Source: Desulfurococcales archaeon (GTDB taxonomy: Archaea; Thermoproteota; Thermoprotei_A; Sulfolobales; NBVN01). Taken from it: 42,853 bases of DNA. Positions within the stretch are counted from its first letter, which is position 1, and each line of letters begins with the position of its first letter. The stretch is taken from NCBI GenBank assembly GCA_027023255.1, contig JALVVU010000094.1, positions 1 to 42,853 on the forward strand. The letters are read 5' to 3'. Below the pieces are notes generated by a model. It ran no database searches. It saw nothing but the letters and a program-made list of their open reading frames with translations, and was not told the DNA's origin. Below are positions 19,499-38,220 of this stretch, one piece after another. A program made the position numbers and the translations under genes.

Positions 19499-21175
19499 CT
19501 ACTCCTCATAGATATATGGGCATGTCGCCTTGACTACTCTTACTAAGTCACCTACACTCATAGATCTTTGAACACCTTCGACACGCATACGCACGTTAAC
19601 CGTTCCAGAGAGCACTTCCCTATCGCCGACTACGACTATGTACGGCACCCATTCCTTGCCCGCATCACGTATCCTCCTGCCTAAACCAGTGTTCCTTGCA
19701 TCTACATCGGCTCGAATACCCTCATTAACCAGTCTACTACACACCTTTTCGGCGTAGTCTCGATGCTCGGGCTTCACGGGGATTATGCGGACCTGGACAG
19801 GGGACATGCATGTAGGGATATAGGGTGTTTTACCGGAGTCCATCATTTGCAGGGCATTACTAAAGACGGTGTAGATTAGCCTTAAGAAGGGGCCTGTAAG
19901 AGTCGATGCTACTGCCACGGGTGAGGATGAGTCACTCGAAGATAAGAGCGTTACGGAAGTTAGCGGAATACGTGTCTTGTCAAGCAGGGTGGTTAGGGCT
20001 ATCTCAAAGAATTCGCTACCATTAGCATCGCAAGCCACACCTATAGCTCGCGCCAACCTTAACTTACCAAGAACTTTCCTTGCAATGTTTTTCTTGCCAA
20101 TCACTACGGCTATTAATTCAATGTCCATGCATTTCGTAAGTACTTCAGCAACAATGTTGATGATACTAGCTGCCGAACTCACCGCTTTAGAGGAGTCACG
20201 AAACGCCTGAATGAAGACCGGGACGGTGTCAGAGGATAGTAGATCACCTCTCCCGTCACACGTCGCATTCCCTATCCACGAGACCTCAGTCAACAGCGCT
20301 TTGTCCTCCATATCGTTGATTATGCCTGACTCCTTCATGTTAAAGTATACAGAGGAGCATAGTGCGTGTAAGTCCGTTCCTAGTCTCTCCCTAGTCACTG
20401 TGTAACCTCCTAGCGACATTACCTTACTTAACGTTGTTATTCCTCCTACCTGTTGAATGACCTTCTCGTTAAGCCTACGTATTTCAGCGACGATAATTTC
20501 CCCTTTGCCTAGGAGGTTCTGGTTAAGTACCCCGAATTTACTAGTAAGTAGGCGCACCTTACTCATGTAGCCCCTATCTAAGGCGTTCTTTCTGGTACCC
20601 ATGAGTTGTTCAAGCAGGTTAATTACATCGGTGTACTTAGCTGTGCCGGGTTCTAAAAGCTGTAAGCCATTGTCCTCCTTCAAGAGAATTTCACACTTTA
20701 GTTGCTCGATTAGCTTCGAAGGTTTTAAAGGAGCCGATGTGTTGCCTATGTGGTACTCTCTTGAAAGTTCCGATAATGGGTGTCCATAGCAAGCTATTTT
20801 GAAAGCTTTATACCAACCGAAGGGTGCTCGCATAATGCTTACATCAGTACAGGCCCCTCTTAAGGTAGTTTCGAGATCCTTAAGGATTCGTAGGGCACAC
20901 TTAGCTTTAGCTAGATTGCTTGAGAGGTGGGCGTACGGATAGAGCACGATGTTCTCTGCCTTAACGTTATGTGCGTGACGGCATATGTCCTGCGCGATAT
21001 TCGAAAGGTACTCCTGCGGGGCATTGCAATCACTCTGCTCGACGGCTGTAAAAACAACCAGTGCGTTCTGCACGCGGGTGCATTCCCTTCCCCTGATATC
21101 CTCCTCAGCCTCACAGATTGCCTTAGATTTTACATCATATGAAAAATCCTCAGCATGAATTAAGAGGACCCTCAT
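19499..21175 (-). CDS. Threonyl-tRNA synthetase-like protein of the crenarchaeal editing (ThrRS-ed) type
   Basis: Archaeal ThrRS editing-domain N-terminus MRVLLIHAEDFSYDVKSKA...; anticodon-binding-like C-terminus PVQVRIIPVKPEHRDYAEKV...GLGRRIRDAGKEWVPYIVVVGDREV; no clear class II motifs 2/3 between them. Confidence 0.8.
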   Translation of the reverse strand: MRVLLIHAEDFSYDVKSKAICEAEEDIRGRECTRVQNALVVFTAVEQSDCNAPQEYLSNIAQDICRHAHNVKAENIVLYPYAHLSSNLAKAKCALRILKDLETTLRGACTDVSIMRAPFGWYKAFKIACYGHPLSELSREYHIGNTSAPLKPSKLIEQLKCEILLKEDNGLQLLEPGTAKYTDVINLLEQLMGTRKNALDRGYMSKVRLLTSKFGVLNQNLLGKGEIIVAEIRRLNEKVIQQVGGITTLSKVMSLGGYTVTRERLGTDLHALCSSVYFNMKESGIINDMEDKALLTEVSWIGNATCDGRGDLLSSDTVPVFIQAFRDSSKAVSSAASIINIVAEVLTKCMDIELIAVVIGKKNIARKVLGKLRLARAIGVACDANGSEFFEIALTTLLDKTRIPLTSVTLLSSSDSSSPVAVASTLTGPFLRLIYTVFSNALQMMDSGKTPYIPTCMSPVQVRIIPVKPEHRDYAEKVCSRLVNEGIRADVDARNTGLGRRIRDAGKEWVPYIVVVGDREVLSGTVNVRMRVEGVQRSMSVGDLVRVVKATCPYIYEE

Positions 21176-23610: not shown

Positions 23611-23706
23611 AGCTTAATTACTGCGTATCATCAATAACCTCATCCTAAATTACCTGCCACGGCACCATTTACATTCCATGCGTGAAGCAATGGTTTATAA
23701 TTAATA

Positions 23707-24771
23707 ATGCGTGATTTACGACGAAGGTGTAACGAAATGAGGAACTTTATAGCCGACCTAACAGGCAAAGACTTAATCACAACCCAAGACTGGGAAATAG
23801 AGGAACTAAAGATTGCCATAGGGCTTGCAGAAGAGTTAAAGTGGAGGTACCATTACTTTGGGATGGATGAAATACCTAAGTTACTGGACAGAAAGACCTT
23901 CTTCATGCTATTCTTCGCACCGTCCACCAGGACTAGAGCAGCCTTCGAGGCGGCAATGACGTACTTAGGTGGTCACGCGCAGTATATTGAATCAAGGCAG
24001 ACCAGGGCGGGTGAAGGGGAGGCGGTTAAGGACATTGTAGCAATGTACGACAGGTACGGTCACGGACTAGGTATAAGAATACTTGACAAAGCAATAGACT
24101 TCAAGCATGGCGTCGGTAACCAACTAATAAGAGAGGCTGCGAAACACGTTAAGATACCAGTAATAAATATGGCTGACGACCAGTTCCACCCAACTCAAGC
24201 CCTAGCGGACTTCATGACCTTCAAGGAAAGATTCCCCCACTATAAAGGCAAGAAATACGTGATAATGTGGGCGTACTCACCGCACATTAGGGGGCCCTGT
24301 AGCATTAACGCAGACCTACTACTCTTCACACGTATGGGGGTCGACGTCACAGTAGCCTATCCCTCAGGCTTTGATCTATACCCAGACATCATTGAGATGG
24401 CGAAGAAGAATGCGGAGGCTAGCGGAGCGCATCTAGAGTTCACGAACGACTACAAGGAAGCACTACGCGGTGCTCACGCAGTCTTCCCGAGGAATTGGGC
24501 ATCAAGGCAACTTCAAGAACTAGGCTACAGCAAGTTCGCTGAGGAAGAACTGAAGATTTACGAGAAGTACAAGGACTGGAAGGTAACTGCTGAGCTCATG
24601 GAGTTAATGGATAAGTCAGGTGTGCTGATGCACGTAATGCCCATAATGAGGGGTTACGAGGCGGACGACGACGTCGTGGATAGCCCGAGGTCGATCCTGT
24701 ACGAGCAGGCCGAGAACGGCTTATGGACCAAGGCTGCTGTGTTAGCGCTCACGATGGCTAATATAAGGTAA
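23707..24771 (+). CDS. Divergent ornithine-carbamoyltransferase-family transcarbamylase (paralog A)
   Basis: APSTRTRAAFEAA carbamoyl-P loop and QFHPTQALADFMT; canonical HCLP replaced by HVMP. Confidence 0.85.
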   Translation: MRDLRRRCNEMRNFIADLTGKDLITTQDWEIEELKIAIGLAEELKWRYHYFGMDEIPKLLDRKTFFMLFFAPSTRTRAAFEAAMTYLGGHAQYIESRQTRAGEGEAVKDIVAMYDRYGHGLGIRILDKAIDFKHGVGNQLIREAAKHVKIPVINMADDQFHPTQALADFMTFKERFPHYKGKKYVIMWAYSPHIRGPCSINADLLLFTRMGVDVTVAYPSGFDLYPDIIEMAKKNAEASGAHLEFTNDYKEALRGAHAVFPRNWASRQLQELGYSKFAEEELKIYEKYKDWKVTAELMELMDKSGVLMHVMPIMRGYEADDDVVDSPRSILYEQAENGLWTKAAVLALTMANIR

Positions 24772-24926
24772 TGAACAAGTAGGACTAGTTATCTAGCAAC
24801 ACCGTTTTACGATAAGCAGTTAAATTGCTTTAATTTTTTGCGGTAAAAACCATGTGGCGATTCACTAAACACAATTAGCACATATTTTTTATTAAATAAG
24901 CACCCTAAGACACGAGGTAGTGCCTT

Positions 24927-25997
24927 ATGGGCAAACCTTGGTATGTTGGTATTTGGGAAGGCCAAGACTACTTAACGAACATTAACAGGACACAAGAAGA
25001 AATAAAAATGATAATTGAGGCGGCCAGGGACCTAGAGCGCAAGTTCAAGTCTAAGATACCGACGCCCTACCTTGCTGGTCAGACACTCTTCATGCTCTTC
25101 TACAACAGATCCTTAAGAACTAGGAATAGCTTTGAAGCTGGGATATTCCAGCTAGGTGGTCACGGCAACTTCCTGAGCCCCAATGATGTCTACACGCCTA
25201 CGCTGCCCGAGGACATGGTTGCTTACAAGACCGAGGCAATAAGCGACGTAGCTAGGGTACTGAGCAGGTACGGGAACGCCATTGCCATCAGGATCTATGC
25301 GGACGCTGCGAAGTGGATTATCGGTCGTGGTCACAGGATAATTGAGGAGTTCGCTAAGTGGGCAAGCATACCGGTACTGAACATGGAGGACGACATATTC
25401 CACCCGTTCCAGGCCCTAGCGGACATAAAGGCGGCTCTTGACGTCATGCCAAACCTACGTGGCAAGAAGTTCGTGGTATCCTACGCATACTCAGGCGGAT
25501 TAAAGCCATTAGCAGTGCCTCAGAGCGTTGCGCTAATAGCAGCTATGATGGGAGCCGAGGTCGTCGTAGCCCATCCACCAGGATTCGAGTTACAGGACGA
25601 AATAATCCAGAAGGGCAAGGAATTCGCCGATCAGTACGGTGGATCCTTCGAAGTCACGTACAACATGAAAGAGGCATTCGAGGGCGCAGCCTTCGTCTAT
25701 CCGAAAGCGTGGAGCCCCAAGGGCTTCTTCCCACCATATAGCGCTGATGGGAAGGTTCATAAGGAGGAGGCTAAGGAGTATCAGGCTAAGTTTAAGGACT
25801 GGATAGTCACCATGGATCTCCTAGAGGAGGCTGGCAAGCCCTACTACATGCACTGCGGTCCTGCGGACAGAGGCATGGAAGTAACGGACGAGGTGCTAGA
25901 CACTTACGAGAAGTCACTATACTTCGAGGAAGCGGAGAACAGGCTCCACGTGCAGAAGGCCGTAATGGCCATGGTAATGGGAAGCCGCTACGACTAA
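24927..25997 (+). CDS. Divergent knotted/AOTCase-like transcarbamylase (paralog B)
   Basis: NRSLRTRNSFEAGIFQLGGHG, IFHPFQALAD, YYMHCGPADRG, EAENRLHVQKAVMAMV; resembles acetyl/succinylornithine transcarbamylases. Confidence 0.85.
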   Translation: MGKPWYVGIWEGQDYLTNINRTQEEIKMIIEAARDLERKFKSKIPTPYLAGQTLFMLFYNRSLRTRNSFEAGIFQLGGHGNFLSPNDVYTPTLPEDMVAYKTEAISDVARVLSRYGNAIAIRIYADAAKWIIGRGHRIIEEFAKWASIPVLNMEDDIFHPFQALADIKAALDVMPNLRGKKFVVSYAYSGGLKPLAVPQSVALIAAMMGAEVVVAHPPGFELQDEIIQKGKEFADQYGGSFEVTYNMKEAFEGAAFVYPKAWSPKGFFPPYSADGKVHKEEAKEYQAKFKDWIVTMDLLEEAGKPYYMHCGPADRGMEVTDEVLDTYEKSLYFEEAENRLHVQKAVMAMVMGSRYD

Positions 25998-26042
25998 GCA
26001 GCTTAAAAACCAAAGCCACTATGATATTTAGGTGAATCAAAG

Positions 26043-27005
26043 ATGGAAAGAAACGAAAAATACATACTAATAGCCCTGGGTGGCAACGCATTCCAAACTA
26101 AGGGCGAGCCAGGCACAACTGAAAACTACTGGAAGAACGCTTATAGGGCCGCCAACACCATAGTCCGGATAGTTAAGGAGGGCTACAAGGTAGCTATAAC
26201 TCACGGAAACGGACCCCAGGTAGGCACGATACTCGAGTGGATGGAGCGCTCAAAGGATAGGATACCACCGCTCGCAATGGACATCGCGGGCGCCATGACT
26301 CAAGGATGGTTAGGTTACTTACTAATGCAGGCAATCGACAACACCCTAGTGAAGGAGGGAATTAGGGATAGTGTCAAGGGAGCCGTCGCGATAGTTAACC
26401 AAGTACTTGTCAGTAAGGACGATCCAGCGTGGCAGAACCCAACAAAGTATGTCGGAAGCTACTACACCAAGGAGGAGGCGGAAAGGCTAGCTAAGGAAAA
26501 GGGGTGGATAATAAAGCCCGATCCCCGAGGAGGGTACAGAAGGGTAGTACCATCGCCTGATCCTAAGGAGAACATAGAGGTAGGTGCGGTCAAGAAACTC
26601 ATAGAGGAAGGGTGGATAGTAATAGCCTCAGGAGGCGGCGGAATACCCGTAATAAGGAATGAGGACGGTACACTACAAGGTGTCGAGGCAGTAATCGACA
26701 AAGACCTAGCAGGCGAGGTACTGGCAACCGCACTCGGCGTAGGCACATTCGTCATACTCACGGATGTTGACGGTGCATACATAAACTATGGTAAGCCTGA
26801 CCAGAAGAAACTGGACGTAGTGACGGTCTCTGAGCTTGAGAAGTATTACAAGGAAGGTCACTTCAAGCCGGGATCCATGGGGCCAAAGGTGTTAGCAGCC
26901 ATAAGGTTCATTAAGCATGGCGGCAGGAAGGCAATGATCGGGCACTTACAGAAAGGGTACGAAGTAATCAAAGGCGAATCCGGAACAATAGTTGTACCCG
27001 ATTAA
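26043..27005 (+). CDS. arcC: Carbamate kinase
   Basis: IALGGNAF, ITHGNGPQVGTIL, ASGGGGIPVI, ILTDVDGAYINYG, GSMGPKVLAAI. Confidence 0.95.
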   Translation: MERNEKYILIALGGNAFQTKGEPGTTENYWKNAYRAANTIVRIVKEGYKVAITHGNGPQVGTILEWMERSKDRIPPLAMDIAGAMTQGWLGYLLMQAIDNTLVKEGIRDSVKGAVAIVNQVLVSKDDPAWQNPTKYVGSYYTKEEAERLAKEKGWIIKPDPRGGYRRVVPSPDPKENIEVGAVKKLIEEGWIVIASGGGGIPVIRNEDGTLQGVEAVIDKDLAGEVLATALGVGTFVILTDVDGAYINYGKPDQKKLDVVTVSELEKYYKEGHFKPGSMGPKVLAAIRFIKHGGRKAMIGHLQKGYEVIKGESGTIVVPD

Positions 27006-27198
27006 CGTACCTAATCACTATAACCGCTATTATTTTTCGTTAAGGAACAAAGAGCAGAGATTCTTTTTCTGTAATGGCATTAAACGATTCTCGAAGGTTT
27101 CAGTCACTGAAGAAGTGCATCTGTTAATATTTATCACTTTACAATAAACGAATACTTAATAAAATTAACAGAGTGTCTTTGAATGAGGGCATAGTTTT

Positions 27199-28587
27199 AT
27201 GCGTGAGAAGGTAGACAAACTCATAAATAATGCATTGATAGTTACGATGAACAAGGACAGGGCGGTAATACCTCGCGGTTACGTTGCTATCTCTGAAGGA
27301 AAAATCGTGGATGTAGGTGTTGGTGACGGTAAATCCAAGTATGATGCTGAGGAAGTAATTGAAGTGAAAAGGCAGGTCGTCACTCCGGGCTTTATATGCG
27401 CGCACACTCATTTCTACGGCATACTACTCACTGGCTCGCCTTGGTTCGGAGTTATAGAGCCTCCATCCGATTTCCAGCAGAACCTCCAAAGGATCTGGTG
27501 GGCTTTAGATGAATCGCTAACGTATGAGGACATTTACATTAGTGCGTTGCTGGGGGCGATAATGCTTGCAAGAACGGGTACAACGTTCTTCAAGGACTTG
27601 CTGGATGCCCCGAACGCCATTGAGGGTTCATTGGATTACATAGAGAAGGCTGTCAATGAAGTAGGCATTAGGGGGTTTGCGGGCTTCTCGGTGACACAGA
27701 GGAGAAGTATAGAGGAAGGCTATCAAGGGATAAAGGAGAACGAGCGCTTCGCGAAGAAAACCTGGAGTGATAAAAATACTAAGGTTAAGGGAGTCTTTAC
27801 GGTACACGCGTCATTCACGGTAACAGATGAGATACTAATACGGACGAAAGAGCTAGCGGACAAGTACGGCACGATATACGCTCTCCATGTTGAGGAAGGA
27901 TTGATAGATGTGTACCATAGTATAGAAAGGTATGGAAAACGCCCCATCGAAAGAATGCGTGACATAGGTTTCCTCTCACCGAGGCTACTTGCAATACACG
28001 TCGTGCAAGCTATCGAGGATGAACTAAAGATACTCAAGGAATTCGACGTTAAAGTAGCTCATAACCCGATGAGTAATATGATAAATGGTGTGGGTGTACC
28101 TCCCGTCCCTAAAATGTTGGACATGGGGATAACCGTCGGCATAGGGAATGACGGGTACATCATGGATGTATTCGATAACATGAGGACAACTTACCTACTA
28201 CATAAGGTGGCGTTAAAGGATCCGCGAGTAATGCCTGTCGATAAGGTTGTTGAGATGGCGACGATAGATGCGGCAAAAGTGCTTGGAGTGGATGATCGCA
28301 TGGGTTCCATTGAGCCAGGTAAGGATGCGGACATAACAATAATAGTGCCTGACTTCGTACACACGCCTCTTGATGAGAGGACAGTGTATGGACACCTAGT
28401 GAATACGTTCACAGGAAATGACGTGTGGGGCGTGCTAGTTGAGGGTGAGTGGGTAACGAAAGAAAGGAAACTTGTTAATGTGGACGTCGAGGAAGTCATG
28501 GAACGCGCGCATAAGGTAATTAACAAGTTATGGGAGCGAATGCTGTCTATGGAACCCAAATACAAGATCGAGTATCTTAAACCATGA
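27199..28587 (+). CDS. SsnA-like amidohydrolase/aminohydrolase
   Basis: VVTPGFICAHTHFYG, NLQRIWWALDESLTYED, VHASFTVTDEIL, VAHNPMSNMINGVG, VGIGNDGY. Confidence 0.85.
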   Translation: MREKVDKLINNALIVTMNKDRAVIPRGYVAISEGKIVDVGVGDGKSKYDAEEVIEVKRQVVTPGFICAHTHFYGILLTGSPWFGVIEPPSDFQQNLQRIWWALDESLTYEDIYISALLGAIMLARTGTTFFKDLLDAPNAIEGSLDYIEKAVNEVGIRGFAGFSVTQRRSIEEGYQGIKENERFAKKTWSDKNTKVKGVFTVHASFTVTDEILIRTKELADKYGTIYALHVEEGLIDVYHSIERYGKRPIERMRDIGFLSPRLLAIHVVQAIEDELKILKEFDVKVAHNPMSNMINGVGVPPVPKMLDMGITVGIGNDGYIMDVFDNMRTTYLLHKVALKDPRVMPVDKVVEMATIDAAKVLGVDDRMGSIEPGKDADITIIVPDFVHTPLDERTVYGHLVNTFTGNDVWGVLVEGEWVTKERKLVNVDVEEVMERAHKVINKLWERMLSMEPKYKIEYLKP

Positions 28588-28610
28588 GCTTTTGTGGGGG
28601 TGATTCAGGT

Positions 28611-29825
28611 ATGGTAGACATAACGGTCGAAATAGCCGGTTTAAAGTTCAAGAACCCCATAATGAACGCAGCATGCCCCATTTCGAGAGATGGTAAGGCG
28701 ATGGAGGAGCTGGCTGCTGGCGGTGCGGGAGGCATAGTGTCGAAGACCATAGGTGTTGTGCCGGCAAAGGTACCGAGACCGCATATGGGTGTAGTGAATC
28801 GAGGCCAGCTCACAGTACTGACCCCAGTGAAGAAGGGAGGAGAGCTCGAGACAAAGATAACGCGTATACGTGGCGCGTACTACGGGTTCCTGAACGCCGA
28901 ACTGTGGACTGACCTACCCCCAGAGCAGTGGTTCGAGAAAGAACTGCCGTACGCAAAGAAAGTGGCTGAACGCTACGGCATACCGCTCCTAGCAAGCATA
29001 GGGTACAAAGCACAGGAATTAGCCGAGTTAGGGCCTAAGGCGGTAAAGGCGGGTGCGCAAGGCATTGAGTTCTCAACCCACTACCTAGGGCACGACTACA
29101 CACCAGTTGTCGAGTCAGCTAAGGCGCTTAGGGAGGCCGTTGACGTACCCATATTCCCCAAGTTAAGTCCACACATTTGGGGTCTCAAGGACTTAGTGAG
29201 GGAACTTGAGAAGGTAGGGGTTGACGGTATCGTAGCCATAAACACGTTAGGGCCAGCGCTTCACATAGACATAGAGACTGGCAGACCAATAATGGGGGGA
29301 CCCCACGGTCACGGTTGGTTATCGGGACCAGCCCTCAAGCCCGTCGGCATAGCCACCGTAGCTGAGATAGCCAAGGTCACGAAGCTCCCCATAATAGGTG
29401 TTGGCGGGATATCTCAACCAGAGGACGTCATAGAATATATAATGGCTGGTGCGTCAGCTGTTCAGGTATGCACCCAAGTAATAGTTGAGGGACCTAAAGT
29501 ATTCAGAAGATTAGCTGAGGGCGTTGCTACGTGGCTAAAGGAGCACGGGTATACCTCACTAGAGGACATAAGGGGTAAGGCCCTCAAGTACCTGACGGAT
29601 CCAGCTGGTTGGTACGAAATCAAGAACCCCGTGGTTGATGAGTCAAAATGTATAGGGTGTGCACTATGTGAACAGTCATGTATTTACGACGCTGTGCATG
29701 TGCAGGAAATTAACGGCAGGAAAGTAGCTGTGGTCGACAAGTCAAAATGCTATGGCTGCGGACTCTGCACAACCCTATGCCCGACTAGGGCTATTCACTT
29801 CCCGGAAGACTACTGGCCCAAGTAA
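28611..29825 (+). CDS. PreA/dihydroorotate-dehydrogenase-like FMN oxidoreductase with C-terminal 2x[4Fe-4S] domain
   Basis: FKNPIMNAAC, IIGVGGISQPEDVIEYIMAGASAVQV; ferredoxin CIGCALCEQSC and CYGCGLCTTLCP. Start 28611 preferred (GGGGGTGAT upstream). Confidence 0.85.
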   Translation: MVDITVEIAGLKFKNPIMNAACPISRDGKAMEELAAGGAGGIVSKTIGVVPAKVPRPHMGVVNRGQLTVLTPVKKGGELETKITRIRGAYYGFLNAELWTDLPPEQWFEKELPYAKKVAERYGIPLLASIGYKAQELAELGPKAVKAGAQGIEFSTHYLGHDYTPVVESAKALREAVDVPIFPKLSPHIWGLKDLVRELEKVGVDGIVAINTLGPALHIDIETGRPIMGGPHGHGWLSGPALKPVGIATVAEIAKVTKLPIIGVGGISQPEDVIEYIMAGASAVQVCTQVIVEGPKVFRRLAEGVATWLKEHGYTSLEDIRGKALKYLTDPAGWYEIKNPVVDESKCIGCALCEQSCIYDAVHVQEINGRKVAVVDKSKCYGCGLCTTLCPTRAIHFPEDYWPK

Positions 29826-29996
29826 CACTTCTCTTCGGGTTACCCCCATAAACTATCCTGACCTTTTAACTGAAGCTAGCAAACTACCCTATGTCCTCTT
29901 TGCTTTTGTGTGGTTAAATTAGCCGAGGTGATGCTTCGGCCTACGTTAAAACTCCTTTAAAAACTTACATGCCTCTCAGTGAGTGAGGTAAGGGTA

Positions 29997-31271
29997 ATGA
30001 CAAAGCACATAATGTATTTGCAGTGCTCAAGGTGCGGTAAGAAATACTATTACGATGAGAAGCCCATAACCTGCATTAACAATGACCTCGGGAGGCTAGA
30101 CATAGTCTACGACTATGAGGCCCTGAAGGAGTTCTACACGCGCGACTACGTAGCTAAGAAGCCCCTAATTAATCAATGGAAATACTTTGACCTTCTCCCC
30201 CCAACTAAGGAAGAGAACATAGTAACCTTAGGTGAGGGTGCAACCCCCCTCATAAGAGCGAATAGGCTAGCCGAGAAATTAGGCATAAGGAAACTTTGGT
30301 TAAAAGACGAGACCCGAAACCCCACGGCATCATTTAAGGATAGGGGCATGTCGGTATCAGTTAGTGTGGCTAAGGAGTTTGGGTTCAAAAGAGCCACCAC
30401 CGCATCATCGGGCAACGCAGCCGCGGCCCTCGCAGCCTACGCCGCTAAGGCAGGAATGGAGGTTTACGCTTTCGTCATAGAGCAGGCCGGATACGGCAAG
30501 ATAGCGCAACTACTGTTCTACGGTGCCCGCGTCTTTAAGGTCAGGGGTCTTGGACGTGAAGACCCAACAGTGAAGCTCATGAAATTAACATACGAGAAAT
30601 TTGGATTCTACCCGTCCCCAAGCTTCGGACCGTTCAATCCGTACCAAATTGAGGGCCCGAAGGCAATATCGTATGAAATAGTGGAGCAGATGAACTGGGA
30701 GGTTCCTGACTGGGTCTTCGTACCCGTAGGCGCGGCATCCCTACTTACTGGTGTGTGGAAGGGATTCCGGGACTATCGTGAATTAGGACTCATAGATAAG
30801 ATGCCACACTTATTCGCTGTACAGTCAAAAGGCAATCCTCCCTTCGTTAGGGCATTCAAGGAAAGTCAGGATCCACACAATATCAAGCCATGGGATAAAC
30901 CCCACACGATAGCTTGGGGGCTCGAGGATCCGTACCCGTGGGATGGTGATGCCGGAATAATGGCTCTAAGGACAACGAACGGAGATGCTGAGGAAGTAAG
31001 TGACGACCTAATACTTAAGGCCATGAAGTGGCTGGCGCAATACGAAGGGATATTTGCAGAACCTTCTGGGGCGGCAGGACTAGCTGGCTTAATGGTAGCG
31101 CTTGAAGGCGGTAGGGTGGGTAGGGATGACGAAGTTGTTGTACTAGTCACCGGTCACGGTTTAAAGGACCCTGACATAGTCAAGGAAACTGCTGGAGACG
31201 CACCGATAATCAATCCGGACCTTAACGAATTCAAGGAGGTCCTAGGGAAGAGGTACGGCATTCAACTCTAA
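29997..31271 (+). CDS. Threonine-synthase-like PLP-dependent enzyme with N-terminal zinc ribbon
   Basis: CSRCGKKYYYDEK; NPTASFKDRGMSVSVSVA PLP lysine; ASSGNAAAALAAYAAKAG. Start 29979 or 29997; TATA-like tttaaaaac near 29955. Confidence 0.82.
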   Translation: MTKHIMYLQCSRCGKKYYYDEKPITCINNDLGRLDIVYDYEALKEFYTRDYVAKKPLINQWKYFDLLPPTKEENIVTLGEGATPLIRANRLAEKLGIRKLWLKDETRNPTASFKDRGMSVSVSVAKEFGFKRATTASSGNAAAALAAYAAKAGMEVYAFVIEQAGYGKIAQLLFYGARVFKVRGLGREDPTVKLMKLTYEKFGFYPSPSFGPFNPYQIEGPKAISYEIVEQMNWEVPDWVFVPVGAASLLTGVWKGFRDYRELGLIDKMPHLFAVQSKGNPPFVRAFKESQDPHNIKPWDKPHTIAWGLEDPYPWDGDAGIMALRTTNGDAEEVSDDLILKAMKWLAQYEGIFAEPSGAAGLAGLMVALEGGRVGRDDEVVVLVTGHGLKDPDIVKETAGDAPIINPDLNEFKEVLGKRYGIQL

Positions 31272-31331: not shown

Positions 31332-32342
31332 ATGGCGGTTTTAGTGACTGGGAAGCAACCAGCGATATTGATAAACAGCGACGGAGGCATAATAATAGAT
31401 TCAACAGTGATTATAGATGGTCATGAGGATCTAGTGCCAAGGATCGTAACACACATACACTCCGACCACACAAGAAGGCTTAAAACATCTATTCAAAAAT
31501 CCAGCCTCCTCATAGGCACACCATTAACTCTGGAATGGCTGAAAGTTCTGGGCTTCAAAATTCCTGACTCAAAGATCATGCCGCTAAACTACGACCAAAG
31601 CATAGAGCTAGGGGAGCTAAAGATATCGCTAAGGGAGGCAAACCACATACCAGGAACAGCTCAGGTTGTCGTAGAGACTACGGATCAACGTATAGTATAC
31701 ACGAGTGACTTCAAAAAACCAGGTGAACGAACACCTATCCTAAGCGCTGACACGCTGGTGATTGATGCTGTCTATGGGGACCCAACATTTCAGAGACCCT
31801 TCGATGACTATATAGATGAGGTGCTAACAGACCTCATAAGAGAGTTACTTGCTAAGGGTCCTGTATACGTTTACGGTTATTACGGTAAGGTGCAGGAAGT
31901 AATGGATATACTTAGGAGAAATGGCCTAGACGCTCCCTTCGTGCTAAGCCATAAGCAGTACGTACTAGCGAGAGTGGCTGAGAGGTTCGGCATGAACTTC
32001 GGAGATTACCTGCACGCTAATTCCAGGGAGGCAGAGGATGTAATGCGTGACGGTTGGTACGTATATTTCACGCATTTAACAGCCTCAAGACGTGCACCCA
32101 ACGGATTAGGTAATCACGTATTGCTGAGTGGCTGGGAATTCAGCAGGCCCTTCAAGAGGCTCGGAGGCAGAAGATGGTTAATTGCCTTTAGTGACCATGC
32201 TGACTTTGTGGGCTTAGTTAAGTATGTTAAGGAAGCTAAGCCAAAGCAGGTCATAGTCAATGTCCGAAGAAGCACTGCTGGCGAGAAGTTTGGGGAATAC
32301 GTAGCAAAGAAACTTGGCGTTAAGGTAAAATTACTCCCTTAG
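31332..32342 (+). CDS. Metallo-beta-lactamase fold exonuclease/mRNA 3'-end-processing-like protein
   Basis: VTHIHSDHTRRL, NHIPGTAQVVVE, VYTSDFK, FSDHADFVGLVKYV. Confidence 0.8.
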   Translation: MAVLVTGKQPAILINSDGGIIIDSTVIIDGHEDLVPRIVTHIHSDHTRRLKTSIQKSSLLIGTPLTLEWLKVLGFKIPDSKIMPLNYDQSIELGELKISLREANHIPGTAQVVVETTDQRIVYTSDFKKPGERTPILSADTLVIDAVYGDPTFQRPFDDYIDEVLTDLIRELLAKGPVYVYGYYGKVQEVMDILRRNGLDAPFVLSHKQYVLARVAERFGMNFGDYLHANSREAEDVMRDGWYVYFTHLTASRRAPNGLGNHVLLSGWEFSRPFKRLGGRRWLIAFSDHADFVGLVKYVKEAKPKQVIVNVRRSTAGEKFGEYVAKKLGVKVKLLP

Positions 32343-33338
32343 TTCCTCGTACTTAAACTCAACCTGCTCTCTGGATAGGACATCACTTATGCTTAGTCCG
32401 TACTCCTCCATGAGTATTAGTATGGCTGCTTGAGGCGGTATGATTCCCTTCTCCGTTATTATTGCGTCTATGTACTCCGGTGGCGTAACGTCGAATACAG
32501 GATTATACACCCTTACCTGGGGATTAGCCTTTAGCCATTCATCTTCTACTATCTCTCGAGGATCTCTCACTTCAATAGGTACCAATTCTCCTATGACTGT
32601 CTGCGGGCTAAACTTGTATGTCTCGGCAGCCACGTAGAGCCTTACCCTAGCTTCCTTCGCAGCTAAGGCTACGAGGGACGTACCTATCTTATTTATAACA
32701 GCGCCGTTAGCGGCTATGGTGTCAGCCCCAACAACGACCTTATTCACGCGCTTCATAAAGTACCTCACTGATGAATCAGGTATTAGTATGACGTCAAGCC
32801 CAGCATCAGCTAGTGCCTTAGCGGTGATTAGGCCCTGCATCTTCGGCCTAGTCTCCTTAACATATACCTTACTCACCTTACCTTGATTATGGGCCTCAAC
32901 GATGACCGACACAGCCGCTGTGCTATGACAGTGAGTCATGATAACGTCTCCGTTCTCTATGCGCTTCGCACCGAGTTCCGCAATCACCTTAACAGCGTTC
33001 TTGGAATACTCTATGAATTCCTCCGCAGCCGATATTACAATTTGCCTGGCTTCCTCAACGCTCCCGGGAGATGCTCTGAGTAGCCTAGTCATTACGTATG
33101 ATATTGCATTCGGTAATGATACTGCGGTGGGTCTTGCGGATTTAACGTATTCAGCAGCTTTCTTCATGTAACTTATGAAGTCCTCAACGTTATTGCCTCT
33201 ATATTCCTCGGCGGCAATGGCTAATGCTTTAGCTCCTGCTCTGGCGATCCTTCCTGCTCCTCGGATTATCATTGTTCGTATGTCTTCCCTTATTTTCCTA
33301 ACTTCCTTGGGGAGCGTGTTAATGTTAAATTCCGTCAT
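32331..33338 (-). CDS. Ribose-1,5-bisphosphate isomerase / eIF2B-alpha-like protein (putatively catalytic paralog)
   Basis: DVIMTHCHSTAAVSV (Cys present), KVVVGADTIAANGAVINKIGTSLVALAAKE. Confidence 0.85.
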   Translation of the reverse strand: MTEFNINTLPKEVRKIREDIRTMIIRGAGRIARAGAKALAIAAEEYRGNNVEDFISYMKKAAEYVKSARPTAVSLPNAISYVMTRLLRASPGSVEEARQIVISAAEEFIEYSKNAVKVIAELGAKRIENGDVIMTHCHSTAAVSVIVEAHNQGKVSKVYVKETRPKMQGLITAKALADAGLDVILIPDSSVRYFMKRVNKVVVGADTIAANGAVINKIGTSLVALAAKEARVRLYVAAETYKFSPQTVIGELVPIEVRDPREIVEDEWLKANPQVRVYNPVFDVTPPEYIDAIITEKGIIPPQAAILILMEEYGLSISDVLSREQVEFKYEELRE

Positions 33339-34255
33339 AAGTTCCTCACCTCCGAAATGAGTGACTCTATACTAGGGACTTTCGGAGGCCAACCATATAC
33401 TTCTTTGATTAGTAGTGGGACAGCTTGGGGAGCTATGAGCCCAACCTCCGTTATTATTGCGTCTATGTATTCTGGCGGCGTGACGTCGAAGAGCGGGGCA
33501 CGAACCAATACCTTACCAGCTAACTCACTTATCTTGTCTTTGGGAATTATTAGGTTAGCATCACTCAGCACAACCCCCTCTATTAACTCACCAAAGACTG
33601 TTTCCAACCCCATCTTATAGGTGCCAGCAGTAACGTAGAGCCTTACTCTAGCTTCCTTAGCCGCGAGCGCTATCGCCGAGGTCCCAACCTTATTGACGAC
33701 GGCCCCATTAGCAGCCACAGCATCTGCACTTACGAAGACCTTACTTATACGCTTCATCACGAAGCGTACGGCGGAATCTACGATGAGTGTAGTGTCTATA
33801 CCTAGCTTACTGATCTTAGCAGCCGCTAACTTCCCTTCCCCTATGGGTCGTGACTCAGTTATGTATACGGAGAACTTTATTCCCCTGTCATACGCCTTCT
33901 TGAAGAGCTCCAATATTGTGCTACTATATGAATGAGTTAGAACGACGTCACCGTCTGTTATCCTGCGGGAACCTAGTGTTGCGACGCGTTCCTTCACCCT
34001 CTCAACACGTTCAATTATCCTGCTAATGATCTTGGGGACCTTACCTACAGCTTCATCAACTCCTTTCTCTTTAGCTAATCGTATGAATTCCTCGAGAAAG
34101 TTACGTGTTAAGTTAACCATCACTATGGATGTGGGGCGTGCCTGAATCATTAACGGGATCGCTATCTGAACGAAGTGTGGGAATCCTTCACTGCATTTTT
34201 CAGCTGCCTCCCTCAATATACTAAGCACGTGATACGCTGCCTCTGTAGAGCCCAT
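33335..34255 (-). CDS. eIF2B-alpha/R15P-isomerase-like paralog lacking the motif cysteine
   Basis: DVVLTHSYSSTILELF (Cys replaced), KVFVSADAVAANGAVVNKVGTSAIALAAKE; overlaps its neighbour by 4 nt. Likely longer N-terminus. Confidence 0.8.
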   Translation of the reverse strand: MGSTEAAYHVLSILREAAEKCSEGFPHFVQIAIPLMIQARPTSIVMVNLTRNFLEEFIRLAKEKGVDEAVGKVPKIISRIIERVERVKERVATLGSRRITDGDVVLTHSYSSTILELFKKAYDRGIKFSVYITESRPIGEGKLAAAKISKLGIDTTLIVDSAVRFVMKRISKVFVSADAVAANGAVVNKVGTSAIALAAKEARVRLYVTAGTYKMGLETVFGELIEGVVLSDANLIIPKDKISELAGKVLVRAPLFDVTPPEYIDAIITEVGLIAPQAVPLLIKEVYGWPPKVPSIESLISEVRNL

Positions 34256-34434
34256 TATTTTTCCTTCTCTTAATTCCCTTGCAACTTTCTCTGCTTTCTT
34301 AAGGAACTCGTCGCACCTGGGCTTGCCTTCTCTCAGAAATCATCACCTATACAAAATAGGACATGAAATGTTAATTAAACTATCCAACATTGAATTGTTC
34401 CTCTTGGCTGAAAATTATTATCCTATTCGCAAGG

Positions 34435-35409
34435 TTACCGCATTTTCTCCTCCTTTACTTGAATGAGCACTTTACATGCCTCAAACCACTTAAGTAGCGC
34501 TTGCTTGGGCGGGACTCCTCTGGGTCCTTCGTAAGCGGCATTTAATGTTGCGGCGCAGGCAGCTAATTTCATGGCATCTACCTCACTATATCCCAGTATT
34601 AGGAAGGCTGTGAAGACACCTACGTAGGCGTCGCCACAGCCTACAGTTGATGTTGTTTTGTACCCTAGCGCCTCAGGCGGGACGGCATTTACGCGTATCA
34701 GGGTGTTTGATAAGGGATTCGCGAGTAGGGAGCCTTTTTCTCCCCGCTTTACAAGGACTTTCAAACGCTGGTTGACTTCCTGAACATGTCTAATTGCCTC
34801 AAGTAGGTTCTTTGATCCCGTCATGGTCAGCAGTTCACCTTCATTTGGGGCTAAGTAATCTACTTTCTCTAAGACCGGCTTTAGCACCTCTAATCCATGC
34901 TTTGACTGCGCCCCTGGGTCCCAAATAACGGTTTTTCCTAGGTCCCTCGCTTTACTGACGAGCTCCAATGCTGTAGGTAATGGCGGATTAGTTATTAGTA
35001 CGTACTGGACAGCCTCTAGGTAAGCGAGTACTTTCTCATCTATTTCTTCCGGAGTGAGTTTAGTGTTTGCGCCGTAGTAACTGTATATTGCTGTGTTTCC
35101 ATTCCTATCCACAGCTACGAAGGCTTGACCCGATTCTACACCGTCTACAACCCTTATTATGTCCGTTATGATTCCTTCCCTCCTTAACGCATCTATGTGT
35201 TTCTTCCCTATGTCGTCATTTCCTACCGCCCCAAAGAAAACCACGGTCTCCTTATCTAAGATCCTTGCTGCCGCGACAGCCGAGTTGCCTCCTGAACCAC
35301 CGAGGTACCTAGTTAGCTTCCGCACTACTGTTTTCGGTGGTGCGAACCTATCCACGTATAAAGTTACGTCGTAATTTAGTGAGCCCACTACCATTAATTT
35401 AGGAGCCAT
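34435..35409 (-). CDS. PfkB family carbohydrate/nucleoside kinase
   Basis: GSLNYDVTLYVD, GGSGGNSAVAAARIL, TSTVGCGDAYVGVFTAFLI. Confidence 0.88.
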   Translation of the reverse strand: MAPKLMVVGSLNYDVTLYVDRFAPPKTVVRKLTRYLGGSGGNSAVAAARILDKETVVFFGAVGNDDIGKKHIDALRREGIITDIIRVVDGVESGQAFVAVDRNGNTAIYSYYGANTKLTPEEIDEKVLAYLEAVQYVLITNPPLPTALELVSKARDLGKTVIWDPGAQSKHGLEVLKPVLEKVDYLAPNEGELLTMTGSKNLLEAIRHVQEVNQRLKVLVKRGEKGSLLANPLSNTLIRVNAVPPEALGYKTTSTVGCGDAYVGVFTAFLILGYSEVDAMKLAACAATLNAAYEGPRGVPPKQALLKWFEACKVLIQVKEEKMR

Positions 35410-35475
35410 AGGCACTCCTCTCTGGTGAAATGATAGGCATTAATTCTTGTTAAATTTAACTTAATTGATGATGAA

Positions 35476-35596: not shown

Positions 35597-37414
35597 TTAG
35601 GACAGATTAATGAAGCGCTCTAGCTGGGTTGCTATGTCGCTTAGCCCGTACTTAATCAAGGTTTCCTTCTTAGGTATTCCGCGGTTGTCCCATCCTCTGA
35701 CTTCGTAGTACTTCATGAGAAGCGCGTCGTAGCCTTCTTTGTTTAGCTTGGCTCCGGCTAATGGTCCCTTAGTTAGGGGGTCCTTGAACCAACGCTCTGG
35801 TGGATAGTCCATAGACTTACTCCAGCTCATACCCATGGCTACGTGTTCTCTGACCCAGAATGCCCTTATCAGTGAGTATACTCTATGGGCAAACTCGTGT
35901 AGCTCGTCCCAGGTGAAGTCAACGCCTGTTGATGCCCTGATGAAGTTGAGATAGTAGTCTAGGTCTAGTCCTAACTCAACCCATGGGAGGCGGCACATGA
36001 CGAAGGACTCGAATAGCGCGCCCCTGATGTTTTGCATCCACACAAGCTTCTCTGCCTTCTCTGGCGAGTAATTATCACGTCCCATCTTCAGCTCGAGGGA
36101 TATGAACCATGCGTCCTTGTGGTGTGCGCCGATACTACACGTACCGTAAGCTAAGGCCATGCCAGGGGCTGCATGGCAGTCGTATGCGGAGATCTCGAGT
36201 CCCTTAACGTGCATTGCGTACCTTTCTGAACCCCCGCCGAGCTTTCTTGCGGCCCGCATGGTTCCGTCCGCCAGCAAGTTACCTACTCCTTCCCTGTATG
36301 CTATCTTGCGTATGAGGTCGGCAGCCGCCTTATAATCACCCCACTCTATTCTGTCGTCCTTGCTGAGCAGGCTATTCTCCGATGCTTCCATGGCGAACCC
36401 TATTACCGAGCCCGTGCTTATAGTGTCGATACCCATGTCATCCACGATATCATTGAGGTGAGAAACCCTGTCAATACCTGTTATGCCTAGGTTTGAGCCG
36501 AGCATCGCGACGTTCTCATAGTCAGGCTCGGCTATCCTCTCCTCTCCATTCACGGTGTACTTTACATAGTTACGGCAGGGCATATTGCAGAATGGGCAGG
36601 CCTCCGTAGAGACCTTTATCTTCTCCATCGCGTCGCCCGAGATACTCTCGAACCCATCGAATACTCCTTCGCGGAAGTTGTATGTTGGTAGGACGGAGTT
36701 CTTCTGCGACCACACGATAGTCATCATGGTGCCTTGCCTAGTCCAGAAGTCGTAGTTCGGTGCCTCCTTAAGTTTCTTGTATGCTTCAGCACCGAGCTTG
36801 TTGAGCGCTTGCTTATCAGCTGGCTCAGGAAGAGATTCACCCTCAAATATTATTGCCTTAACTCTCTTCGACCCAAGTACTGCACCCATTCCCGGACGTC
36901 CTCCGGAACGCCCATGCTCGCTAATCACGGTCGCGTAAAGTACCTTGTTCTCGCCTGCTGGACCTATGAAGAGTGCTGCGAGATTCTTGCCGAATTGCTT
37001 CTGAAGCCTGCGCTCTGTTTCATGAGTCCCTAATCCCCATAAATCATCGGCAAGTAAGAACTCCACACCCTTTGACGTGATCTTTAGCGTTACAGGTTTT
37101 TCTGAAGTGCCCTTAATCACTACTGCGTCGAATCCGCATTTTCTCATTTCGACTGCCGCGCGCGTCCCTATGTTACCATCGCCATACCCTAGCGTTAACG
37201 GTGATTTTGACGCTATGATCATCTTACCGGAAGAGGGTAGTGGGAACCCCGTCAGCGGACCTACAGCGAGTATTACGTGGTTTTGTGGCGAGAATGGGTC
37301 TATCCCTGGCTCATTTAGATCCCAGAGAAGCTTAGCAGCTAACCCTCTTCCACCAATGTACTTACGCAGGAAGTCACTGCTTAATTCCTTCAAATTTGAC
37401 TCCTTCTTAGTCAA
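35597..37414 (-). CDS. Tungsten-containing aldehyde:ferredoxin oxidoreductase family
   Basis: FLRKYIGGRGLAAKLLWDLNEPGIDP, GPLTGFPLPSSGKM, ACPFCNMPCRNYVK. In-frame homologous sequence GWSGRLLYVDLTKKE continues upstream of the ORF-track start. Confidence 0.93.
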   Translation of the reverse strand: MTKKESNLKELSSDFLRKYIGGRGLAAKLLWDLNEPGIDPFSPQNHVILAVGPLTGFPLPSSGKMIIASKSPLTLGYGDGNIGTRAAVEMRKCGFDAVVIKGTSEKPVTLKITSKGVEFLLADDLWGLGTHETERRLQKQFGKNLAALFIGPAGENKVLYATVISEHGRSGGRPGMGAVLGSKRVKAIIFEGESLPEPADKQALNKLGAEAYKKLKEAPNYDFWTRQGTMMTIVWSQKNSVLPTYNFREGVFDGFESISGDAMEKIKVSTEACPFCNMPCRNYVKYTVNGEERIAEPDYENVAMLGSNLGITGIDRVSHLNDIVDDMGIDTISTGSVIGFAMEASENSLLSKDDRIEWGDYKAAADLIRKIAYREGVGNLLADGTMRAARKLGGGSERYAMHVKGLEISAYDCHAAPGMALAYGTCSIGAHHKDAWFISLELKMGRDNYSPEKAEKLVWMQNIRGALFESFVMCRLPWVELGLDLDYYLNFIRASTGVDFTWDELHEFAHRVYSLIRAFWVREHVAMGMSWSKSMDYPPERWFKDPLTKGPLAGAKLNKEGYDALLMKYYEVRGWDNRGIPKKETLIKYGLSDIATQLERFINLS

Positions 37415-37551
37415 GTCTACGTAAAGTAGTCTTCCACTCCAACCGTGCGAGGCTGAACACCCATAGACTTAATTTCGCGCCTAGATTAATGAATATTATA
37501 CTCCGAAATCCTTATGAGGATCACAGTAGTGATATTGGGGGAACTGAAAAC

Positions 37552-38220
37552 ATGGCTAAGCTTAAGACCAAGCTTGTATCATGGGATGATGTAGTTGCTT
37601 GGTCACGTGGCCTCGCCAAGAAGATTCACGAGTCTGGATATAGACCTGACATCGTAGTGGCTGTGGCTCGGGGAGGATTTGTCCCTGCAAGGTTAATATG
37701 TGATTTCCTGCTAATAGATAACTTACTCTCAATACAATCCCAGCACTGGACGGAAGCCGCTAAAGCGGAGGACAGGGCAGTAATAAAGTTCCCGTACAAG
37801 ATCGATTTGAGCGGTCGTAAGGTTCTCTTAGTGGATGATATTGTTGATACAGGAGAGTCTCTAGCTTTAGCAAGGAATTACATTTACAGTAATTGGAACG
37901 CAAAGGAAGTAAGGATAGCTGTCCTGCAGTGGATCTCATCGGTTGCTAAATTCAAGCCAGACTACTACTTTATGGAGGTTAAGGAGTGGGTCTGGTTCCA
38001 GTACCCGTGGACAAGGTTAGAGGATACTTTCCAGTTATTCAAGAGGATTCTAAAGGAGGAGGGTAAGTATAAAAGGGAGTGGACGTACGAGGAGCTTGTC
38101 GCTAAGTTCATGGAGTGGTATGAGCTAGACGTGGGAAGTGAGTACTTCAAGGAGGCAATAGAGCTTCTGGTGAGACATGGTCTCCTCAGGAAGGCTGGTG
38201 ATAAGTACCTAATACCCTAA
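37552..38220 (+). CDS. Purine (xanthine/guanine-type) phosphoribosyltransferase-like protein
   Basis: VAVARGGFVPARLICDFL; VLLVDDIVDTGESLALA. Start ATG 37552 likely. Confidence 0.8.
   Translation: MAKLKTKLVSWDDVVAWSRGLAKKIHESGYRPDIVVAVARGGFVPARLICDFLLIDNLLSIQSQHWTEAAKAEDRAVIKFPYKIDLSGRKVLLVDDIVDTGESLALARNYIYSNWNAKEVRIAVLQWISSVAKFKPDYYFMEVKEWVWFQYPWTRLEDTFQLFKRILKEEGKYKREWTYEELVAKFMEWYELDVGSEYFKEAIELLVRHGLLRKAGDKYLIP

Follow-up and report, generated by a model that had tools for sequence, protein, structure and literature searches.

The reductive degradation of uric acid has been described in E. coli and C. difficile (Li et al. 2025), and the accompanying family network names bacterial phyla alone (PMC12507026). 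In this bacterial pathway, urate is converted to yanthine, from which YgfK or UacX, together with SsnA, produces ureidomethyl-hydantoin; HyuA converts the latter to diureidopropionate, which is processed by YgeW and then YgeY to diaminopropionate, the substrate from which YgeX yields pyruvate (PMC12507026). Here we describe a row of six genes (positions 23707-31271, + strand) in a 42,853-nucleotide contig, hereafter the window (JALVVU010000094.1), from the draft assembly of a Desulfurococcales archaeon (GCA_027023255.1; 1.70 Mb, 92.6% complete), that is likely to form the core of an archaeal reductive (yanthine-type) pathway of purine and uric-acid degradation. The six open reading frames (ORFs) are all intact, consecutive and on one strand, and encode, in this order, two transcarbamylases (CT1 and CT2), a carbamate kinase (CK), SsnA, a PreA-like reductase and a threonine synthase paralogue (ThrC*).

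A sequence-only reading of the window had recognized six consecutive + strand genes of these named families, with which both the ORFs and the family models agree, and had proposed a nucleobase fermentation via diureidopropionate and two transcarbamylases, ending in pyruvate and carbamoyl phosphate. This scheme fits all of the context evidence; the six genes do not make up the whole pathway, however, and the Xdh, hydantoinase and purine deaminases are encoded at other sites of this genome. The observations that bear on it are the gene content, its conservation and co-occurrence, the enzyme classes, and the loss of particular threonine synthase and PreA residues. From these, we infer the individual reactions and the sequence in which they run, as well as the natural substrate and how CT1 and CT2 share the work. 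Adenine and guanine would be deaminated by an adenine deaminase and a GuaD-like enzyme encoded on another contig (C7), and an Xdh-type molybdenum enzyme (contig C82) would bring the purine to the required oxidation state. With electrons that probably come from ferredoxin, the PreA-like reductase would dearomatize the purine, SsnA would open the six-membered ring, and the C7 hydantoinase would open the other ring to give 2,3-diureidopropionate; the archaeal set includes candidates for each bacterial step up to this compound. CT1 and CT2 would then phosphorolyse both ureido groups into two carbamoyl phosphates, from which CK would make ATP, and ThrC* would split 2,3-diaminopropionate into pyruvate and ammonia.

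The arrangement of these genes is far beyond chance, because the gene order is kept in 12 related loci and the pattern of presence and absence across 117 genomes is identical for CT1, CT2, SsnA and ThrC*. When GTDB genomes were searched for SsnA, 55 loci emerged, nearly all archaeal, that span Desulfurococcales, Nitrososphaerota-type, Baldr-, Geotherm- and Heimdall-/Hodarchaeota lineages as well as HR01. The six-gene order is full, or broken only by contig ends, in 12 Desulfurococcales loci (L005-L016), and CK and PreA lie beside other members of the set in most of the loci fetched. The sequence-only reading had named a lack of conserved synteny and arginine genes flanking homologous loci as findings that would speak against it; the order proved conserved in these 12 loci, and no arginine operon was seen at the homologous loci.

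Co-occurrence in other genomes, which the same reading had put forward as a check, was followed in 117 genomes of the order, each at least 70% complete. Orthologues of SsnA, CT1, CT2, ThrC* and the C7-type hydantoinase are present in an identical set of 24 of these genomes, 10 from the family of the window, in which the six genes adjoin, and 14 from another family, in which they are scattered, with members of the set up to hundreds of kb apart (in G020, CT1 at 491 kb, SsnA at 535 kb, hydantoinase at 653 kb and ThrC* at 701 kb). The chance that two sets of 24 among 117 coincide is about 10^-25 if the genomes are taken as independent, which they are not. In three genera, one member each (G042, G009 and G114) lacks the whole set, and its sisters retain it. 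The large subunit of the C82-type Xdh is found in 22 of the 24 carriers and in none of the 93 other genomes. One hydantoinase, that of G030, reads as two overlapping pieces.

On contig C7 of the window's own genome, an adenine deaminase (above its model cut-off), a guanine-deaminase-like gene and the hydantoinase adjoin each other. The hydantoinase is a cyclic amidohydrolase for which the allantoinase, dihydroorotase and hydantoinase models all score closely, with the allantoinase and hydantoinase models below their cut-offs. The C82 Xdh-type enzyme scores nearer to XdhA. An operon on another contig of this genome (C156:15001-27949, locus L080) comprises XdhL-M-S, a cyclic amidohydrolase, a LIV-type ABC transporter and a divergent second XdhL. 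It was considered as the missing half of the pathway and dropped, because the C82 Xdh and the C7 hydantoinase fit the presence profile instead: the C156 hydantoinase occurs in 23 of the 117 genomes independently of SsnA, namely in only 14 of the 24 carriers plus 9 genomes without SsnA. This operon is perhaps involved in the uptake and breakdown of another N-heterocycle.

CT1 (23737..24771, +) and CT2 (24927..25997, +) both match Pfam OTCace/OTCace_N, and no ornithine, acetylornithine or putrescine transcarbamylase model reaches its cut-off with either protein. Aligned with YgeW and two ornithine transcarbamylases (OTCs), both retain the SxRT and HPxQ motifs and carry a proline-rich loop and an extended 120's loop, the features by which knotted transcarbamylases are recognized (PMC4581275). 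The DxxxSMG loop of OTCs is absent from this alignment in both proteins, with PRNWASR in its place in CT1 and PKAWSPK in CT2. The tree places them together with YgeW (support 96) and away from true OTCs, one of which is encoded elsewhere in the window genome. The AlphaFold2 (AF2) model of CT1 (pLDDT 93) has its nearest folds among acetylornithine transcarbamylase (AOTC), OTC and YgeW-type structures, a search that does not separate knotted from unknotted kin. Judged by these sequence features, CT1 and CT2 belong to the YgeW class of knotted transcarbamylases and, like E. coli YgeW, combine the two loops with the lack of DxxxSMG; their identity to YgeW is about 30%, and its extra terminal helices are missing from the archaeal proteins. 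The sub-cut-off scores and the missing DxxxSMG speak against anabolic ornithine or acetylornithine enzymes, which the sequence-only reading had named as the outcome that would undo it. The adjoining CK (26043..27005, +) is of the arcC/YqeA type (TIGR00746, 387 bits against a cut-off of 358; 42% identity to E. coli YqeA) and could make ATP from carbamoyl phosphate. The ORFs scanned in the window (those at 17.4-37.4 kb plus ten more) included no arginine deiminase gene, a search that did not extend to the whole genome.

Because the archaea keep two transcarbamylases together and have no YgeY at the core loci, two phosphorolyses are the simplest reading. CT1 would be a phosphorolytic ureido cleaver and CT2 a candidate replacement for the YgeY step, and we lean, by a modest degree, towards a pathway in which two knotted transcarbamylases dedicated to this task phosphorolyse both ureido groups of diureidopropionate, with two ATP per purine via CK and a threonine synthase paralogue turned diaminopropionate ammonia-lyase. 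The use of a transcarbamylase in place of a ureido hydrolase has a precedent in the Rubrobacter ureidoglycine transcarbamylase (UGTCase).

Alternatively, only one of the two transcarbamylases would act on diureidopropionate, the other would serve a different ureide or amine, and an unlinked hydrolase would remove the second ureido group. In the tree, CT1 and CT2 indeed form two distinct groups of old origin, and Desulfurococcales, HR01 and Hodarchaeota are represented in both; these old paralogues differ in their loops; furthermore, bacteria do remove the second group with the hydrolase YgeY (PMC12507026), and a single archaeal locus, L027 (SsnA-PreA-PALP-ThrC*-YgeY), includes a YgeY-like gene (318 bits against a cut-off of 321). 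However, each of the 24 genomes keeps CT1 alongside CT2, no YgeY-class gene was found near the set at the core archaeal loci, and the M20 genes located near the hydantoinase in three genera, considered as stand-ins for YgeY, are ordinary DapE/ArgE types. We regard this division of labor as unlikely.

In the purine pathway that we favor, SsnA (27199..28587, +) would open the reduced purine ring. SsnA is its best-matching model, at 358 bits below the curated cut-off of 444, and in the tree, the window protein and E. coli SsnA form one clade with support 100 that excludes both GuaD and the paralogues in the same genome, with the caution that E. coli SsnA is a long branch. The reductase (28584..29825, +; the start may be at 28611) is a putative UacX/YgfK-like protein predicted to bind flavin mononucleotide (FMN) and two [4Fe-4S] clusters. 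It consists of DHO_dh and C-terminal Fer4 domains and lacks a flavin adenine dinucleotide (FAD) domain, a layout also reported for C. difficile UacX, an FMN DHO_dh domain with Fe-S clusters and without an FAD domain (PMC12507026). Its best model is PreA (196 bits, below the cut-off of 335). In the alignment, the catalytic-Cys loop of the uracil-reducing E. coli PreA is deleted, as it is in YgfK. The structure model of this protein (pLDDT 73) was too weak for use.

These two proteins bear on a simpler, reductive pyrimidine route, which the sequence-only reading had also entertained: PreA would act on uracil, followed by a dihydropyrimidinase and one transcarbamylase acting on N-carbamoyl-beta-alanine, with CK making ATP. 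PreA being the best-scoring named model, the presence of a hydantoinase and the speculation on a catabolic beta-alanine transcarbamylase (PMC4581275) are in its favor. However, the loss of the catalytic-Cys loop disfavors uracil as the substrate, SsnA is not a dihydropyrimidinase yet is strictly co-retained, and the route gives no role to the second transcarbamylase, to ThrC* and Xdh or to the adenine deaminase next to SsnA, which makes it improbable. The PreA and hydantoinase genes at L049 look like a genuine pyrimidine pair and were left out of the support for the purine pathway.

ThrC* (29979..31271, +) contains a PALP domain, matches PRK08197 above the cut-off (332 against 303 bits) and is 39% identical to the true ThrC of its own genome, a separate gene located beside a homoserine-kinase-like gene. 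It shares the fold family and the pyridoxal phosphate (PLP) lysine with the threonine synthase of T. thermophilus (1uim). In contrast, T88, N154, S155, R160, N188 and N191 (numbering of the T. thermophilus enzyme) are replaced in 24 of 24 homologues, and the first five of these residues are those which we take to hold the substrate phosphate (1uim/1v7c). No YgeX-class match was found in any locus. The candidate for the final ammonia-lyase, which would act on 2,3-diaminopropionate, is ThrC* or, less likely, a CysK-like PALP enzyme; the proposal of the sequence-only reading that a ThrC-like PLP enzyme could be the lyase is kept as a candidate, with the true ThrC being another gene. That ThrC* exceeds the threonine synthase cut-off is also what speaks for an assembly of chance neighbors, that is, independent biosynthetic or salvage genes (arginine-type transcarbamylases, a threonine synthase and a generic amidohydrolase), a very improbable explanation that is contradicted by the perfect co-occurrence in spite of scattering, by the true OTC and true ThrC elsewhere in the genome, and by the lost substrate residues of ThrC*.

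Several points weigh against the purine pathway as drawn here. The identity of the hydantoinase is assigned at the level of the family and the presence profile, and G097, a 99% complete genome, lacks Xdh. The C82 enzyme has no residue that corresponds to the Glu606 proposed for XdhD, a test that is uninformative; yanthine therefore need not be an intermediate, and entry could be from xanthine or hypoxanthine via another dihydropurine. Among the steps assigned, the initial reduction is the weakest. In place of ThrC*, the cysteine-synthase-like PALP protein whose gene neighbors Xdh could act as the ammonia-lyase. Finally, carbamoyl transfer strongly favors carbamoylation (PMC4016543). Double ureido phosphorolysis would therefore need a strong pull by CK. 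Given that carbamoyl phosphate is also heat-labile, such an uphill reaction would require tight coupling to CK.

Outside the 12 loci with the six-gene order, members of the set recur in other combinations. The order is rearranged to CT2-c18-radicalSAM-CK-SsnA-PreA in the Thermogladius/Staphylothermus group and to SsnA...CT2...CK-CT1 in Hodarchaeota, and Heimdallarchaeota have an SsnA-ThrC* pair. L136 combines PreA-ThrC*-CT2-PALP (cysteine-synthase-like)-XdhM-XdhS-XdhL-hydantoinase within 10 kb; L139 reads CT2-ThrC*-PreA-CT1; a guanine-deaminase-like enzyme, adenine deaminase and SsnA are consecutive in L138 and L141; and a guanine-deaminase-like gene adjoins CT1 in L144 and L145. The bacterial locus L055 has CT1-CK-Xdh-SsnA. 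In HR01 (as in L053), the order is a luciferase-like reductase, SsnA, XdhM-S-L, CT1, CK, ThrC*, a second luciferase-like gene, PALP and CT2. The two luciferase-like (F420-type) genes (L053:707-1717 and L053:10113-11093) belong to a cluster without PreA and recall the reported uric-acid clusters of Chloroflexota. In several Thermogladius/Staphylothermus-type genomes, the gene for a 315 aa protein that no Pfam or NCBIfam model matches lies, together with a radical SAM gene, between CT2 and CK (L017:7061-8784), and phosphoglycerate kinase and GAPDH genes, probably unrelated, lie directly 3' of PreA in that family (L017:13544-15917). Genes for SsnA, PreA-like, AFOR-family (tungsten) enzymes, polyferredoxins and ThiS-like proteins stand in rows at L039:717-7883, where the row ends in a HyuA-like gene, and at L032:7452-19135; in Baldr- and Geothermarchaeota, the place of Xdh may thus be taken by a tungsten enzyme.

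In the window, the row had been taken to begin at 23707, where the reading frame is open; CT1 probably starts at the ATG at 23737, because its homologues begin there and a TATA-like promoter element, TTTATA (23694..23699, +; a consensus match only), lies 43 bases 5' of it. On the opposite strand (32331-35415, -), genes for a ribose 1,5-bisphosphate isomerase (a match to TIGR00511 that exceeds the cut-off), a diverged paralogue and a PfkB kinase adjoin the operon, as they do in relatives; a link between the ribose and base halves of nucleoside breakdown is possible. An AFOR gene (35597-37414) was dropped as a pathway member, as it adjoins the operon in the nearest relatives only. Further 3' of the operon, a phosphoribosyltransferase (37489-38220, +) possibly functions in purine or pyrimidine salvage. 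A threonyl-tRNA synthetase-like gene (19499-21175, -) matches the Ser-tRNA(Thr) hydrolase model and probably encodes the free-standing editing protein that Crenarchaeota are known to have.

In the open literature, we found no earlier report of an archaeal reductive uric-acid pathway, which is described for bacteria only; subscription papers and preprints were outside this search, which leaves priority uncertain. The paper on the genome of Staphylothermus marinus mentions neither carbamate kinase nor xanthine. If the assignment is correct, the range of the pathway widens to Desulfurococcales, HR01-type and Hodarchaeota lineages, and purines would be a fuel for heterotrophs of hot vents, degraded, if both ureido groups yield ATP, by an energy-conserving variant of a gut bacterial pathway. 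It would also predict enzymes that phosphorolyse two ureido groups, where the sequence of cleavage is an open question in bacteria, and imply a separate origin of diaminopropionate lyase activity.

Among known systems, R. xylanophilus UGTCase is similar in that a transcarbamylase and CK replace a ureido hydrolase in the purine breakdown of a thermophile; it differs in being ATCase-like and unknotted, and in working on allantoate in an oxidative pathway (PMC4016543). The reductase resembles C. difficile UacX, or 'dehydrogenase X1', in its FMN DHO_dh and Fe-S composition without an FAD domain and in its linkage to ssnA, hyuA and xdh, a likeness of reported layout (PMC12507026, PMC4016543). The closest counterpart of the whole is the E. 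coli/C. difficile cluster (XdhD, YgfK/UacX, SsnA, HyuA, YgeW/UacY, YgeY, YgeX and YqeA; PMC12507026), with which the archaeal set shares an Xdh-type enzyme, a DHO_dh-type reductase, SsnA, a hydantoinase, a YgeW-class transcarbamylase and CK, which co-occur and partly cluster. In contrast to the bacterial cluster, the archaeal genes are partly scattered, their hosts are hyperthermophiles, and they include two transcarbamylases and no YgeY, as well as a ThrC-derived PLP enzyme and no YgeX.

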